From: a virus
Length of the DNA stretch: 47,731 bases
Virus record (IMG/VR): IMGVR_UViG_3300042691_004758
Coordinates: 1-47,731 of that record
Reading direction: 5' to 3' (one strand)
The notes below the pieces were generated by a model. That model saw nothing but the letters and a program-made list of their open reading frames with translations, did no database searches and had not been told where the DNA came from. Every line of letters starts with the position of its first letter. The first letter of the stretch is position 1. Both the position numbers and the translations under genes were made by a program. Of the stretch, positions 2,642 through 47,731 are shown in pieces.

Positions 2642-4224
2642 TGGAATATATTAACGAAGAAGATACATTTAGCAGCGAGGTATCCATTTCTAATTCATCA
2701 GACATGTTTACGTTTGATAAATCCATTGTTATAGAGACAGATCCATTTAAGGTATCTGGAGACGATTTAAAAAAGATTAATGGTTTAAGCCCAACATTTC
2801 GTCGTAAGGTTTCAAGAGAATTTCAAAAAAGATTTAGCGGTATAGAAGGAACTGCAACACAACAAAATCTATTACAGCAAGCAGTAACTGGCTACGCCAT
2901 GTTCGACCTTGTTCAACCGATGTACAACCTTGAGTATCTATCAAAAATTTATGAAATCTCTCCATACAACTATGCTGCAATTAATGCTAAGGTTGCAAAT
3001 ATTGTTGGCTTAGGATATTCATTTGTTGAGAGTAAAAAAGCTATGGAAGCTTTAGATAACATTGCAGATGAAACACAGCTAAATCGTGCACGTAGAAAAA
3101 TGGATAGAATTAGACAGCAACTAGATCTTTGGCTAGAAGACGTAAACGAAGAAGAAACATTTGTTGAGACTCTCGTAAAGGTATACACAGACCTAGAAGC
3201 AACAGGAAATGGCTTTATTGAAATAGGTAGAACAACAAGCGGAAACATTGGATATATTGGACATATCCCAGCAAAGACAATGCGTGTTCGTAGACTACGT
3301 GATGGATTCATACAACTACTTTACGGCAAGGCAGTATTCTTTAGAAACTTTGGCGATATGGAAACAGAGAATCCAATTGCTGGTCAAGAAGACCGACCAA
3401 ATGAAATTATTCAATTAAAGAAATATACACCTATGGATAACTACTACGGTATTCCAGATATCGTAGCGTCACAGAATGCTATGGCTGGTAATGAGTTCGC
3501 TGGCAAGTATAACCTTGACTACTTTGAAAACAAGGCAGTTCCAAGATATATTATTACAGTAAAGGGTGCAAAGCTTTCTACAGAATCAGAAAGAAAGTTG
3601 CTTGAGTTTTTCCAGGTAGGACTTAAAGGAAAGAATCATAGATCTCTTTATGTTCCACTACCAGCAGACTCTGCAGATTCTAAAGTTGAATTTAATATGG
3701 AGCCAGTAGAGGCAAATATTCAAGACTCATCATTTAACACTTATCGAAAAGCTAACCGTGATGAAATTTTGCTTTCACACAGAGTTCCAATAAATAAAAT
3801 TGGAGTACCAGAGGGAGTCAGCCTTGCCTCTGCTAGAGACGCAGATAAAATGTTTAAAGAGCAGGTATGTCGTCCAGCACAGGATATTCTAGAAAAGAAA
3901 TTAAATAGAATTATTGCCGAAAAGACAGACGTGTTAGTTCTTAAATTTAATGAGCTAACCCTGACAGATGAAGACACGCAATCTAAGATAGATGAAAGAT
4001 ATTTAAGAATGCAGGTTATTACTCCAAATGAGGTTAGAATTAGAAAAGGCATGGTCCCAATTGATGGTGGAGATGCAGTAATTCAGCTAAAACCTCAACA
4101 GGCAGCCGAACAAATGGCCCAAGCTACTAATAGTAGAAGAAGAACCCAGGAAAGAGATGCCAATGCACCTGATATTTCAGGGGAGGCCAGAAATCCAAAA
4201 GGTGAGGGTAGAACGACTGCTTAA
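2641..4224 (+). CDS. portal protein
   Basis: A 527-residue protein in the portal position, with portal-type features: an N-terminal segment reading YEISPYNYAAINAKVANIVG, a long charged helical region near residues 130-180, then alternating strands and a basic C-terminal tail. The portal forms the dodecameric ring at one head vertex through which DNA is packaged and ejected, and binds terminase. Order (portal, protease, capsid) is classic HK97-like. The C-terminus (after about residue 490) is low-complexity, Gln/Arg/Gly-rich and probably disordered. A T-tailed hairpin follows the stop. Confidence 0.88.
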   Translation: MEYINEEDTFSSEVSISNSSDMFTFDKSIVIETDPFKVSGDDLKKINGLSPTFRRKVSREFQKRFSGIEGTATQQNLLQQAVTGYAMFDLVQPMYNLEYLSKIYEISPYNYAAINAKVANIVGLGYSFVESKKAMEALDNIADETQLNRARRKMDRIRQQLDLWLEDVNEEETFVETLVKVYTDLEATGNGFIEIGRTTSGNIGYIGHIPAKTMRVRRLRDGFIQLLYGKAVFFRNFGDMETENPIAGQEDRPNEIIQLKKYTPMDNYYGIPDIVASQNAMAGNEFAGKYNLDYFENKAVPRYIITVKGAKLSTESERKLLEFFQVGLKGKNHRSLYVPLPADSADSKVEFNMEPVEANIQDSSFNTYRKANRDEILLSHRVPINKIGVPEGVSLASARDADKMFKEQVCRPAQDILEKKLNRIIAEKTDVLVLKFNELTLTDEDTQSKIDERYLRMQVITPNEVRIRKGMVPIDGGDAVIQLKPQQAAEQMAQATNSRRRTQERDANAPDISGEARNPKGEGRTTA

Positions 4225-4279: not shown

Positions 4280-5605
4280 ATGAATATTGAAAAATCTTAT
4301 TGGTCTTCAAATGGCGACAATATCAATTTGTCTGTTCCGTTTACAAAGGTCAACCGTGAAAAAAGAACTGTTTCTGGATTCGCTACACTAGATAATCTTG
4401 ATCAAACAGGAGATGTAGTTACGGCTGAAGCAAGCCTAAAAGCTTTTGAAAATTTTCGTGGAAACATTCGTGAGATGCATGGGTCAAATGCTGTTGGCAA
4501 AATGGTATCATTTAAGCCAGAAAGTTTTTATGATCCAAAAAGCGGAGAATTTTACAATGGCGTTTATGTAGACGCTTATATTTCTAAAGGCGCTCAAGAC
4601 ACATGGGAAAAGATTTTGGACGGAACCCTTGCAGGTTTCTCAATTGGCGGAAAGATTATTGATTCAGATAATGAAGTAAATAAGTCTACAGGAAAAGCAA
4701 TTCGTTTTATTAAAGATTATGCATTGATGGAACTATCAGTTGTAGATTCACCAGCAAATGAGTTGTGCAACATTTTGTCTATTCAGAAGATGAATGGACA
4801 ATTAATGTTTAAAGGAATAGCAGCAGAAACTGCTACAGAAAATATTTTTTATTGTGAAGAGAGTAAATCAGTATTCATCTCACAAGAAGCATCTTATGAC
4901 TCCCCAGTCACTGGTAAGCCAGCATCACTAATTGGTTGGGTAGAGAGTAACGATGTTAACAAAGCTAAAGAGATAGATAAGATTCTTGATTCGTTCATGA
5001 AGTCAAGATTACCGTTGCCTGATACACAAACAATTGCAAAACAGGCAAACGTAGAAGGAGGTAATGAAGTGTCAGAAAACACAGAAAACGTAGTTGCAGA
5101 AGATGCAGTAGCACCAGAAGCAGCCGTAGAAGAAACACCAGTTGTTGCTGAGGAAGCACCAGCTGCTGAAGTTGCTGTAGAAGAAGCAGCAGCAGACGCT
5201 TCTGCCGAAACTCTAGAAAAAGCAGCCGACGTATCAGAAGTTGAGGTTGATGAACCTGATTTTGCAAAGATGCTTGGTGACCTAAAAGGATTTTTCTCAG
5301 AGACTCTAAACAAAGCTTCAGAAGCAAATGCAGCACAAGTTTCAACAATCAAAGAGACAGTTGAAGTTTTCAGCAAGAGCGTTGACAGCAGAATTTCAGA
5401 GTTGGCAGAACAACATGCCGTACTAAGCAAGGCTGTTGAAGATATCAAGAGCACGATTGATGGCGTAGAAAAGCGTGTCGATGCAGTAGAATCAGAGACT
5501 GCAATTAAGAAGTCCTCAGACCTTGGCGGGTCTCAGGAAGTAACAATCAAAAAATCAAAATGGAACGGTTCTTTCCTCGGTTCCGTAAACGAATTATTCA
5601 ACTAA
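4280..5605 (+). CDS. HK97-type prohead protease fused to scaffold-like C-terminus
   Basis: A 441-residue protein from the ATG at 4280; an upstream in-frame TTG lies inside the terminator hairpin and is rejected. Residues about 15-175 match the prohead serine protease family: TVSGFATLDNLDQTGD, His in REMHG (H67), Ser in LAGFSIGG (S121) and the ELSVVDSPAN segment that ends the fold. The protease cleaves capsid and scaffold parts during maturation. Residues 176-262 form a second small domain. The rest is Ala/Glu-rich and then coiled coil, typical of a scaffold or delta domain. A strong internal ribosome site suggests the C-terminal part is also made alone. Confidence 0.87.
   Translation: MNIEKSYWSSNGDNINLSVPFTKVNREKRTVSGFATLDNLDQTGDVVTAEASLKAFENFRGNIREMHGSNAVGKMVSFKPESFYDPKSGEFYNGVYVDAYISKGAQDTWEKILDGTLAGFSIGGKIIDSDNEVNKSTGKAIRFIKDYALMELSVVDSPANELCNILSIQKMNGQLMFKGIAAETATENIFYCEESKSVFISQEASYDSPVTGKPASLIGWVESNDVNKAKEIDKILDSFMKSRLPLPDTQTIAKQANVEGGNEVSENTENVVAEDAVAPEAAVEETPVVAEEAPAAEVAVEEAAADASAETLEKAADVSEVEVDEPDFAKMLGDLKGFFSETLNKASEANAAQVSTIKETVEVFSKSVDSRISELAEQHAVLSKAVEDIKSTIDGVEKRVDAVESETAIKKSSDLGGSQEVTIKKSKWNGSFLGSVNELFN
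5069..5605 (+). CDS. probable independent scaffold protein from an internal in-frame GTG
   Basis: Inside the protease gene, GGAGG at 5057-5061 sits 7 bases before an in-frame GTG at 5069. This is one of the best ribosome sites in the window, yet it lies in the middle of a gene. Starting there gives a 178-residue protein beginning MSENTENV, with an acidic Ala/Glu/Val-rich first half and a coiled-coil second half (about residues 80-150), ending SVNELFN. Known parallel: lambda C protease and Nu3 scaffold share one frame with an internal start. I infer the same arrangement; the scaffold would guide capsid assembly and then be digested. Confidence 0.6.
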   Translation: MSENTENVVAEDAVAPEAAVEETPVVAEEAPAAEVAVEEAAADASAETLEKAADVSEVEVDEPDFAKMLGDLKGFFSETLNKASEANAAQVSTIKETVEVFSKSVDSRISELAEQHAVLSKAVEDIKSTIDGVEKRVDAVESETAIKKSSDLGGSQEVTIKKSKWNGSFLGSVNELFN

Positions 5606-45377: not shown

Positions 45378-45414
45378 TGATATAATTGTACTAGGATGCC
45401 CAATTGGGGTCCTA
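45378..45414 (+). promoter_or_regulatory. TGATATAAT promoter with 5'-end stem-loop before Hsp20
   Basis: TGATATAAT at 45378-45386 is a perfect extended -10. Starting near the predicted first base, TAGGAT (45392-45397) pairs with GTCCTA (45409-45414) and CCC with GGG around an AATT loop, with one bulged G. A U-rich stretch and AAAGGAG then lead to the ATG at 45448. Confidence 0.62.
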
Positions 45415-45447: not shown

Positions 45448-45873
45448 ATGGTACAAACATACACATGGGACCTTTTCAAGGACCCATTTTTTATTGGCTT
45501 TAATCGTGAACTAGATAGACTTACAAGGGTTCACAGCCACGCATCAAACTCAACATACCCACCATACAATGTAATTAAAACAGACGACGAAGATACATTT
45601 TTAATCGAAGTTGCTGTGGCGGGCTTTGCCAAGGAAGACCTTGGAATCACTGTTAAGGATCAAACTCTTACCGTAAAGGGAGAAATTAAGGATTCTACAG
45701 AAGACGCAAAGTTCGTGCATAAGGGTATTGCAACTCGTAAATTCACAAGAGAATTTGCTCTTGGAGAATATATTGAGGTTACTGGTGCTGAGGTATTAAA
45801 TGGTATGCTCACAATTAAATTAGAGCGTATTGTTCCTGAAGAGGAAAAGCCAAAGACCATCAAAATAAAATAA
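45448..45873 (+). CDS. Hsp20 family small heat shock protein
   Basis: A 141-residue protein with an alpha-crystallin domain at about 45-135: FLIEVAVAGFAKEDLGITVKD, LTVKGEI, GIATRKFTREFALGEYIEV and the conserved NGMLTIKLERIVPEEEKPKTIKI end containing the I-x-I anchor (IKI). Typical bacterial IbpA/Hsp20 length. It binds unfolded proteins without ATP. Phages (for example cyanophages) carry such genes, perhaps to protect folding during virion production. It has its own promoter and leader hairpin, so may be highly expressed. Confidence 0.93.
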   Translation: MVQTYTWDLFKDPFFIGFNRELDRLTRVHSHASNSTYPPYNVIKTDDEDTFLIEVAVAGFAKEDLGITVKDQTLTVKGEIKDSTEDAKFVHKGIATRKFTREFALGEYIEVTGAEVLNGMLTIKLERIVPEEEKPKTIKIK

Positions 45874-45877
45874 ATAG

Positions 45878-45883
45878 TATAAT
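45878..45883 (+). promoter_or_regulatory. -10 box of the thermonuclease leader
   Basis: Perfect TATAAT five bases after the Hsp20 stop. The -35 is poor and no TGn extension exists. The predicted start is near 45890, at the foot of the first stem of the structured leader. Confidence 0.5.
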
Positions 45884-45886
45884 ATA

Positions 45887-45971
45887 AATCTGCACCCCGT
45901 CACTGGGGAGTCGCAGATTATATGCGGGCCGCTACCCGCAGGATAGACCTGAGCATGTCTCAAAACGGCTC
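45887..45971 (+). ncRNA. structured 5' leader with two hairpins and possible H-type pseudoknot
   Basis: First element: AATCTGC (45887-45893) pairs with GCAGATT (45913-45919); inside, CCCC (45895-45898) pairs with GGGG (45905-45908), loop GTCACT, with an asymmetric AGTC bulge. Second: TGCGGG (45923-45928) with CCCGCA (45935-45940), loop CCGCTA. Third: AGAC (45945-45948) with GTCT (45957-45960), while GAGC in that loop (45951-45954) can pair with GCTC (45968-45971), an H-type pseudoknot with loop CAAAACG. The SD AAGGAG (45982-45987) follows. It is much more GC-rich than its surroundings. Could be a riboswitch, a protein-binding leader or a stable mRNA cap; class not recognised. Confidence 0.65.
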
Positions 45972-45991
45972 TTTAAAATTTAAGGAGAATC

Positions 45992-46396
45992 ATGTTTGAA
46001 TACAGAGTTAAGCAAGTAACAAAAATAGTAGATGGGGATACTATTGATGTTGACATTGATCTTGGATTCAGCATTTCATATTCTCAAAGACTTAGGTTGG
46101 CTGGAATAGATACTCCAGAATCTAGAACAACCGATAAGGTAGAAAAAGCTCTTGGATTAGAATCAAAAGAATATTTAAAGTATAAATTTAAAGATGCTAA
46201 AGACATCGTTGTAAAAACAGAAAAGCCAGATAGTTCAGAAAAGTATGGTCGAATACTTGGGTGGGTGTATCTTGATGGTAATTCTAAGTCAGTGAATGAG
46301 CAGATGATTGAAGATGGTTATGCGTGGGGATATATGGGGGAAACTAAAGTCAAAGATTTTGAAGCTTTAGCAAAAATAAGAGCAAAGAAGAAGTAG
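45992..46396 (+). CDS. thermonuclease (staphylococcal nuclease family)
   Basis: A 134-residue SNase-fold nuclease with the catalytic set: DGDT at 14-17, RLRLAGIDTPE with R35, D40, T41 and E43, and YGRILGWVY with R87. SNases cut DNA and RNA using calcium. There is no signal peptide, so it should act inside the host cell (host nucleic acid breakdown) or in the virion. The start has AAGGAG and is preceded by the structured leader. The next gene begins 2 bases after its stop. Confidence 0.92.
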   Translation: MFEYRVKQVTKIVDGDTIDVDIDLGFSISYSQRLRLAGIDTPESRTTDKVEKALGLESKEYLKYKFKDAKDIVVKTEKPDSSEKYGRILGWVYLDGNSKSVNEQMIEDGYAWGYMGETKVKDFEALAKIRAKKK

Positions 46397-46612: not shown

Positions 46613-46651
46613 TGATATAATTACAGAGTTACATAAACAATTTATGTAACT
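46613..46651 (+). promoter_or_regulatory. TGATATAAT promoter followed by a perfect 11-bp stem-loop
   Basis: TGATATAAT at 46613-46621. AGTTACATAAA (46627-46637) and TTTATGTAACT (46641-46651) are perfect inverted arms around CAA, beginning at the predicted transcription start. GGAGAG follows, then the TTG start at 46666. The arms share ATGTAAC with the operator-like dyad at 27333. Confidence 0.68.
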
Positions 46652-46665
46652 TAGGAGAGTCTTAA

Positions 46666-47731
46666 TTGACTAGAAAAGCTAAACTTTTATTATTCAGCCT
46701 GATTGTATTGGGCTGGCTATCATTTTCTGTACCAGATTATGCTCATGCAACTGGAGAAAATGGTCAAGAACAGGTAGTGGTAAGCCCAGCACAGCAGGCG
46801 GTAAACACAGCTCTTGCAACAGCTACTACAGAGGTACAACAAGCCATAGATGCAACTGCAAATTCTGCAACTGAAATAACACAGGCTCAAACAGAATTAT
46901 CTCAAGCGCAGGCTGCAGTATCAGGATTATCATCAGCAGTATCTACAGCACAAACAAGTGTTAATAATGTTCAAAGTGCTATTAATAATATTAACGGTGT
47001 TGATTTAACAGTAACTCCAGTAGATCAAAGTTCTCAATTAGTACAAGATGCTAAAGCAACTGTAATTAATGCTCAAACAGCAATTAATAATATTAATACA
47101 ACTACTGCTCAGTCAGAAGTTTCTCAACTAACAGCAGCTAAAACTGAAGCCGTAACAGCACAAGCAACTGCTCAAACAGAATTAACTCAAGCAAACCTTG
47201 CTATTGATGCTGCTCAAACTGCAGTAAACAACTTACAAGCAACAATTGGAACAACTACAAACGTTTTGGCTGGCGTAGATGACGCTGGAGTAAGAATGAG
47301 TCTACCTTTTGGAATGCAAATGGGCGGAACAGTTTATAATGATGTTTATGTAGGATCAAATGCAACAATAACATTTGGTGTAGATCAAGGGTGGGTTTAT
47401 TATCAAACTCCAGATGCCCCATCAGTTTCTATTGGTGGATGGGACTGGACAACTTGGAGCACAGGAACTGGAATTACATATTCAACTACTGGAACAAGTC
47501 TGGACATTGCTTGGGACTTAAGGCCTTATCCACAACAAGATGCTTCTACTCAAATGGTTCAAATAAGGTTTAACGCTGATGTAAATCCAAACAATGGTGC
47601 TTGGATGGCAAATGTAACTGCAGTTGGTCCAATACCAAATGGTGCGAGATTTAACTACAGGGAAACAACAAATGGTGCTGTTACAGAAATTACTGATACA
47701 AATACTGGTACTGGATTTGCGGGACAAATAA
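46666..47731 (+). CDS. secreted coiled-coil protein with nidogen-like beta domain (runs off the window end)
   Basis: TTG start with GGAGAG 6 bases upstream; 355 codons here, continuing at bases 1-191 for 418 residues in total. N-terminal signal peptide: MTRKAKLLLF, then a hydrophobic core, and an AHA-T cleavage site after residue 28. Residues about 45-195 are Ala/Gln/Thr-rich heptads, a long coiled coil. Then a beta domain: GVRMSLPFGMQMGGTVYNDV and YVGSNATITFG, like nidogen-type or other jelly-roll modules, with Trp-rich segments. It has its own promoter. A Sec signal on a phage protein suggests secretion to the cell envelope or surface. Confidence 0.78.
   Translation, partial: MTRKAKLLLFSLIVLGWLSFSVPDYAHATGENGQEQVVVSPAQQAVNTALATATTEVQQAIDATANSATEITQAQTELSQAQAAVSGLSSAVSTAQTSVNNVQSAINNINGVDLTVTPVDQSSQLVQDAKATVINAQTAINNINTTTAQSEVSQLTAAKTEAVTAQATAQTELTQANLAIDAAQTAVNNLQATIGTTTNVLAGVDDAGVRMSLPFGMQMGGTVYNDVYVGSNATITFGVDQGWVYYQTPDAPSVSIGGWDWTTWSTGTGITYSTTGTSLDIAWDLRPYPQQDASTQMVQIRFNADVNPNNGAWMANVTAVGPIPNGARFNYRETTNGAVTEITDTNTGTGFAGQI

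Follow-up and report, generated by a model that had tools for sequence, protein, structure and literature searches.

The window analysed here, an IMG/VR virus record of 47.7 kb, probably belongs to an actinophage, because its large terminase is closest to those of Streptomyces phages (62%). Between the stop codon of an Hsp20 gene (45873) and the ATG of an SNase gene (45992) lies a gap of 118 nt which contains, from 5' to 3', a TATAAT box, hairpin A, hairpin B, a pseudoknot, a tail of 10 nt and the sequence AAGGAG (Table 1). The structured part of this gap (45888-45971) has 58.3% G+C, compared with 36.0% for the whole window, and the fold of the + strand of the gap gave a z of -2.5 in relation to shuffled sequences, 3 of 200 shuffles being equally good. 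The earlier note had described three structured elements with perfect arms in this gap; the elements are real and G+C-rich, but hairpin A, which has an asymmetric internal loop, is not perfect.

Table 1. Features in and around the gap between the Hsp20 and SNase genes (window coordinates)
Feature	Position	Strand	Remarks
Hsp20/alpha-crystallin gene	45448..45873	+	Pfam HSP20, E 7.9e-20; conserved upstream neighbour of the element
-10-like TATAAT	45878..45883	+	4 nt past the Hsp20 stop codon; putative promoter
Module A, imperfect hairpin AUCUGCACCCCGUCACUGGGGAGUCGCAGAU	45888..45918	+	conserved across 71 distinct leaders
Module B hairpin GCGGG-CCGCUA-CCCGC, optional	45924..45939	+	compensatory stem changes between loci
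H-type pseudoknot	45945..45971	+	sole copy in the window by a geometry search of both strands; class covaries
Pseudoknot S1	45945-45948 with 45957-45960	+	
Pseudoknot L1	45949-45950	+	
Pseudoknot S2	45951-45954 with 45968-45971	+	
Pseudoknot L3	45961-45967	+	
Unstructured A+U-rich tail, from pseudoknot to ribosome-binding site	45972..45981	+	
Shine-Dalgarno AAGGAG of the next gene	45982..45987	+	identified by sequence
SNase (thermonuclease-like) gene	45992..46396	+	Pfam SNase, E 7.3e-17; not the downstream neighbour in most related loci

In its core the feature is a single copy of an RNA element widespread among phages, an H-type pseudoknot of 27-30 nt in which both stems covary and the loop residues CU and AAA do not vary. 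Its consensus is NNNC-CU-NNNYA-W-GNNN-N2-6-AAAC-URNNN. The window copy (AGAC-CU-GAGC-AU-GUCU-CAAAACG-GCUC) departs from it at a single place, AAACG for AAACU, by which the last S2 pair is lost, and it ends 10 nt ahead of AAGGAG, the distance to the ribosome site that had been noted before. The first scan for the element was made without stem 1, so that S1 pairing was tested free of circularity: the variable inner pairs 2 and 3 of S1 were Watson-Crick in 151/151 of the distinct viral matches listed. In two further scans one side of S2 was fixed and its partner was left free. With A changed to G at the second S2 pair, the partner was C in 77, U in 4 and A or G in none of the S1-paired matches listed, while the scan with G changed to U gave, among the matches listed, A 17, U 15, G 2 and C 1, many of the cases with U being Staphylococcus-like copies in which the outer pair was lost. 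Compensatory changes were found at four of the five S2 pairs, and S2 types include GAGC/GCUC, GGGC/GCCC, UAGC/GCUA, AAGC/GCUU, GGAC/GUCC, AGGC/GCCU and AAAC/GUUU. When a structural search left all stem sequences free, strand-resolved loci totalling 12.6 Mb yielded 483 copies, among which S2 took at least ten different compensated forms, versus 2 copies in 4.7 Mb of shuffled sequence. In an alignment of 77 sequences 99.3% of the cells pair and the covariation score is 0.63, against 0.18 when shuffled and at most 0.14 when slid; these sequences were chosen for pairing, and the unbiased counts from the scan without S1 and from the A to G scan are the stronger test. Two interleaved helices with compensatory changes place the element among H-type pseudoknots, the physical fold being predicted from sequence. 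The earlier note had suggested this fold for the last element and had named lack of covariation in the stems as evidence against it; across phage copies covariation is strong in both stems, and the suggestion holds. A chance structure or a DNA-level repeat without RNA function is scarcely credible, for although the window has a single copy and the fourth S1 pair is G-U and A-C alike among the viral matches listed (12 vs 8), both stems covary, knot orientation follows transcription and the copies far outnumber those in shuffled sequence.

A search of the window with Rfam 15 gave nothing at the gathering threshold and only chance matches (E 0.3-3.6) at loose thresholds, and in 39 related loci no model was found over the knot, which is in accordance with the statement of the earlier note that the class was not recognised. 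A description of the element was also not found in the open-licence papers searched. What we consider new is the class as such, together with its distribution and its association with tRNAs and ribozymes, while the H-type fold is of an already known kind, as is intercistronic end protection, if that is the job of the element.

The element was found in IMG/VR phages, in prophages and in named phages. An IMG/VR scan for the conserved residues of the knot detected copies beside unrelated genes, with up to four per 6-14 kb among the matches listed, prevalence based on such scans being at least that; in whole virus records there were 1-6 copies per 42-136 kb and the reversed pattern was absent. In a host-range survey which is not exhaustive, the named carriers include Lactobacillus phages Lj771 and KC5a, Staphylococcus phage StauST398-3, S. 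aureus phietaviruses, Anoxybacillus phage A403 and phage D6E. Roseophages SIO1 and P12053L (Celeribacter), Lentibacter phage ICBM2 and cyanophages S-RIM4 and S-EIV1, with Synechococcus among the hosts, also have it, as do crAss-like phage cr124_1, Mycobacterium phage Labelle, Arthrobacter phage Molivia, Microcystis phage Mwe-JY13 and Nostoc phage NMeng1. BLAST matches in Erwinia phage Berlingot, E. coli phage ST32, Aeromonas phage phiA050 and Vibrio phage D456 failed the structural test and were rejected; Vibrio phage 1.238.A has a possible variant of the knot. In contigs of bacterial genome assemblies S1 was paired in 64 of 117 pattern matches. Leaving the seed genomes themselves aside, the pattern was absent from all 368 genomes of the class of the Pseudomonas seed, which was a chance match, and occurred in 1 of 399 genomes of the class of the Lactobacillus seed. 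Unselected bacterial genomes are therefore almost without the pattern, and a bacterial chromosomal element was rejected in favour of an essentially viral (phage) one. In Saprospira grandis (locus L479, minus strand near 4553) a copy of the knot is situated within an apparent CRISPR spacer between repeats, and this spacer looks like a phage-derived one, taken from the element.

Gene context was examined, with simple ORF calls as gene calls, in 71 loci with modules A or C which were collected without reference to SNase. Hsp20 is located upstream in 64/71 of them and SNase downstream in 28/71 (p 2e-10), the other 43 having a different downstream neighbour: a zinc-ribbon protein, a kinase, other proteins or a second TATAAT box. 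About half of the SNase relatives have the leader, and the remainder, in other gene contexts, have none. In six other phages the knot alone lies within ~30 nt after Hsp20, and the genes 3-12 nt upstream of other copies encode DUF932 (7/48) and Hsp20 (4), as well as capsid, minor head and SSB proteins. In unrelated phages the knot has tRNAs, ribozymes or scaffold genes after it, and the gene order found in Firmicutes phages is portal or minor head, knot, scaffold, capsid. With Hsp20 as the constant and the downstream gene as the variable neighbour, the element would seem to be tied no less closely to the end of the message before it than to the start of the one after it, and the neighbouring nuclease is incidental. 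The riboswitch or autoregulatory element controlling the nuclease, which the earlier note had found plausible, was in its nuclease-specific form rejected on the ground of this gene context, and a leader specific for SNase has to be abandoned as well, given the many SNase homologues without it and the knots adjoining unrelated genes in unrelated phages. It is improbable, more generally, that the knot is a riboswitch or a cis-regulatory binding site acting from within the leader of the gene it precedes, the nuclease in this case. Such a role would account for the proximity of the window knot to the Shine-Dalgarno sequence and for the distance of 17-21 nt between knot and start codon in most copies of the freshwater group, and it has a phage precedent in the T4 gene 32 pseudoknot (PMC3014915), but the downstream genes are unrelated to each other, and what comes next is in many copies a tRNA, a terminator, a ribozyme or another promoter. 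The sharing of the knot by phages of many phyla also makes one ligand or one phage protein unlikely.

In the related leaders the knot is the last part of a modular cassette, in which module A is nearly constant, module B and a further module C can be missing and the closing pseudoknot is never absent, sometimes following module A directly. Hairpin A is conserved mainly at the level of sequence: pairs 3-6 never vary, pairs 1-2 partly pair and there is little covariation. Stem variants of module B among the loci are TTCGGGT/ACCCGAA, GGGCA/TGCCC and TTTGAGC/GCTCAAA. Module C (AGUCGGGGGAGACAGCGACUUUAAAUAACUGG), present in freshwater leaders L318, L327, L329 and others, looks like a second, different pseudoknot class; Rfam had no match for it in L318, the one locus checked. 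The spacing between TATAAT and module A is 4 nt in 88/89 related copies, and between TATAAT and module C 6 nt in the 8 copies in which C is directly next. TATAAT is also enriched in the intergenic DNA of the window (8/43 occurrences in ~3% of the sequence). Module A probably forms the 5' end of a transcript or adjoins it, and if TATAAT is a promoter, the cassette would also start a transcript with its 5' end folded in module A, in which case it could combine three roles, that of a small capped RNA, that of a 5' leader and that of the 3' terminus of the Hsp20 message. At two other places in the window, 45381-45411 (upstream of Hsp20) and 46616-46648 (upstream of the gene at 46666), an intergenic TATAAT is accompanied by a hairpin within a few nt, which suggests that 5'-sealed transcripts are a habit of the window phage.

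Across the class the knot most often starts 5-9 nt past a stop codon, and in intergenic regions of at least 150 nt it lies 4-10 nt past the stop in 29/73 cases (p 2e-17), a spacing from which we infer that the knot would begin just beyond the mRNA channel of the ribosome at termination. The first ~10 nt 3' of the knot are G-poor. In 26/402 copies a tRNA gene starts 3-14 nt 3' of the knot, as against 1/402 with a tRNA within 15 nt upstream (p 4e-7). Hammerhead-like (six) or HDV-like (two) cores are found just downstream in 8 copies, while the sole upstream ribozyme match is at the end of an upstream gene. The hammerhead cores lie directly 3' of the knot in L423 (a Polynucleobacter MAG, two cores), L457, L084, L087 and L517; Rfam calls one of them only (RF00008, in L423), and the other hammerheads as well as both HDV-like cores were assigned by inspection of the sequence. 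The HDV-like candidates, neither of which is called by Rfam, start 1 nt past the knots 3481-3508 and 4722-4749 on the minus strand of L486 (reverse-complement coordinates). From the positions at which such ribozymes are known to cleave, the upstream product is predicted to end 1 nt past the knot for the HDV-like cores and 6-13 nt past it for the hammerheads. In Aminicenantes contigs intrinsic terminators are situated 3' of the knot.

Several further arrangements were observed around individual knots. A conserved ORF of ~20 codons (like MKRFTVPRIAHCAEGCRHSS) has its TGA inside the knot in L411, L413, L428, L464 and L480 (Aminicenantes and others), and at least three of these loci have an intrinsic terminator next. 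In crAss-like cr124_1 (L534, 2001-2070) tandem knots, the first with S2 UAGC/GCUA, lie directly ahead of tRNA-Val. The Rfam motifs DUF2800 (RF02960) in L470 and GP20-b (RF03003) in L498 are situated directly 3' of the knot as separate motifs, neither model covering the knot itself, and their functions may be related to message processing.

The knot was rejected as an intrinsic terminator, since the window lacks a U-tract (UUUAAAAUUUAAGG) and some other copies have tRNAs 3-14 nt downstream, which leave no room for a new promoter. For a possible signal of frameshifting or stop readthrough the spacing from the stop codon is suggestive, while several of the copies have further stops soon after the gene and non-coding neighbours. 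That the knot addresses RNA polymerase or the ribosome, for instance in put-like antitermination, or insulates the mRNA against misfolding with the next tRNA or ribozyme, is quite unlikely. Universal targets in the host would explain the host range, and the location between genes, beside promoters or structured RNAs, fits such functions, but they predict neither the distance from the stop codon nor that to the processed 5' ends, and with tRNAs so close downstream the knot cannot itself be an efficient terminator.

Our tentative reading, which we hold with a little less than even confidence and which rests on comparison of sequences, is that the knot is an exonuclease-blocking 3'-end element of phage mRNAs. 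A compact knot at the ends of phage messages would stop 3'-to-5' exonucleases; it would be placed just past the stop codon, beyond the reach of the terminating ribosome, and be followed by a short unpaired tail, at the end of which the RNA would be released by RNase P (at a tRNA), a self-cleaving ribozyme, termination or an endonuclease, so that the upstream message would retain the knot ~1-14 nt from its 3' end. In the freshwater phage group to which the window belongs the knot is the last part of a cassette (TATAAT and hairpin A, with hairpin B or pseudoknot C as options) behind Hsp20; the Hsp20 message would be what it protects there, and a short RNA begun at the TATAAT box may be capped by it as well. 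In this scheme the structure, distribution and positions of the knot are what the sequences show, and the block to exonucleases, the 3' polarity and the processing at the tail are what we infer from them. The 3' polarity is favoured because tRNAs and ribozymes sit 3' and not 5' of the knot, and because of the tight spacing from the stop codon and the G-poor tail, to which the terminators in Aminicenantes and the constancy of Hsp20 as a neighbour can be added. Occurrence in diverse phages without an obvious shared protein suggests that the knot acts alone or through a universal host machine. Many copies, although not all, do lie after a stop codon and near a 3' end or processing site, as an intercistronic exonuclease block should.

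Several observations speak against such a 3' block. About a third of the copies (135/419) lie no more than 45 nt ahead of a start codon, and tRNA and ribozyme neighbours, only one ribozyme among them being called by Rfam, accompany a minority. A stable stem would suffice for the task, so the invariant CU and AAA need rigidity or reading by a protein. The gene order in Firmicutes would suit protection of the downstream message equally well, and the fixed TATAAT spacing suggests a transcript which starts before module A and has the knot within its 5' leader. The last two points agree with a 5' roadblock, in which the knot would stop RNase J (5'-to-3') or decay dependent on the 5' end and so stabilise the following message, the freshwater cassette being a 5'-sealed leader. 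Eukaryotic viral xrRNAs are knot-like 5'-to-3' blocks, and it may be added that Enterobacteria hosts are not known to have RNase J and that the few Enterobacteria phage matches checked are not real knots. Even so we regard this roadblock as unlikely, in view of the tight spacing to the upstream stop codon, the tRNAs and ribozymes on the 3' and not the 5' side, and the Aminicenantes knots which stand directly before terminators, with no nearby downstream message to protect.

The element is a compact and precisely definable RNA class which is present in well-studied phages and yet absent from the RNA catalogue. It offers a handle on the lifetimes of phage messages and on differential expression within polycistronic transcripts, and also on the question why phage genomes bear intergenic self-cleaving ribozymes. 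If it is true that the knot alone blocks exonucleases, it would provide a stability tag of 27 nt for expression constructs.

Among known RNAs, the PreQ1-I riboswitch is a small H-type pseudoknot with an A-rich loop 3, but the element has no Rfam match even at E 5 and its identified neighbours are unrelated to queuosine. Flaviviral and plant-viral xrRNAs share with the element a compact viral RNA fold and a possible role towards exonucleases; they stop Xrn1 in eukaryotes, whereas the element is without an Rfam match. A bolder reading, which is doubtful although we would take it seriously, is that the knot is a protein-independent exonuclease-resistant pseudoknot, a counterpart of xrRNAs in bacterial viruses, which would serve as a standard message end cap in tailed phages of hosts from many phyla and form, together with tRNAs and ribozymes, a cut-and-cap system. 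The gene 32 pseudoknot was the only viral one named as a translational autoregulator in a 2010 review of T4 (PMC3014915). In T4, T2 and RB69 it is, like the element, an H-type knot in phage mRNA, with coaxial short stems and an A+U-rich unstructured stretch after it (PMC3014915), but it controls a single gene as its autogenous operator, from a position 67 nt ahead of the start, whereas the element accompanies unrelated genes and tRNAs and carries a fixed CU...AAAC signature; the gene 32 operator is upstream of the SSB gene, while in Molivia the knot follows SSB. The best match among demonstrated cases is in E. coli, where the galE hairpin lies 5-10 nt from the 3' end of the mature mRNA and stops exonucleases once RNase E or Rho has made a longer 3' end (PMC11925234). 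This hairpin and REPs resemble the knot in being structured RNAs that follow a stop codon and lie within a few nt of a processed 3' end, with a proposed role in blocking 3'-to-5' exonucleases between cistrons. They are, however, simple enterobacterial stem-loops, while the element is a pseudoknot with invariant loop residues in phages of many hosts, a host range predicted by neither the galE hairpin nor the gene 32 knot.
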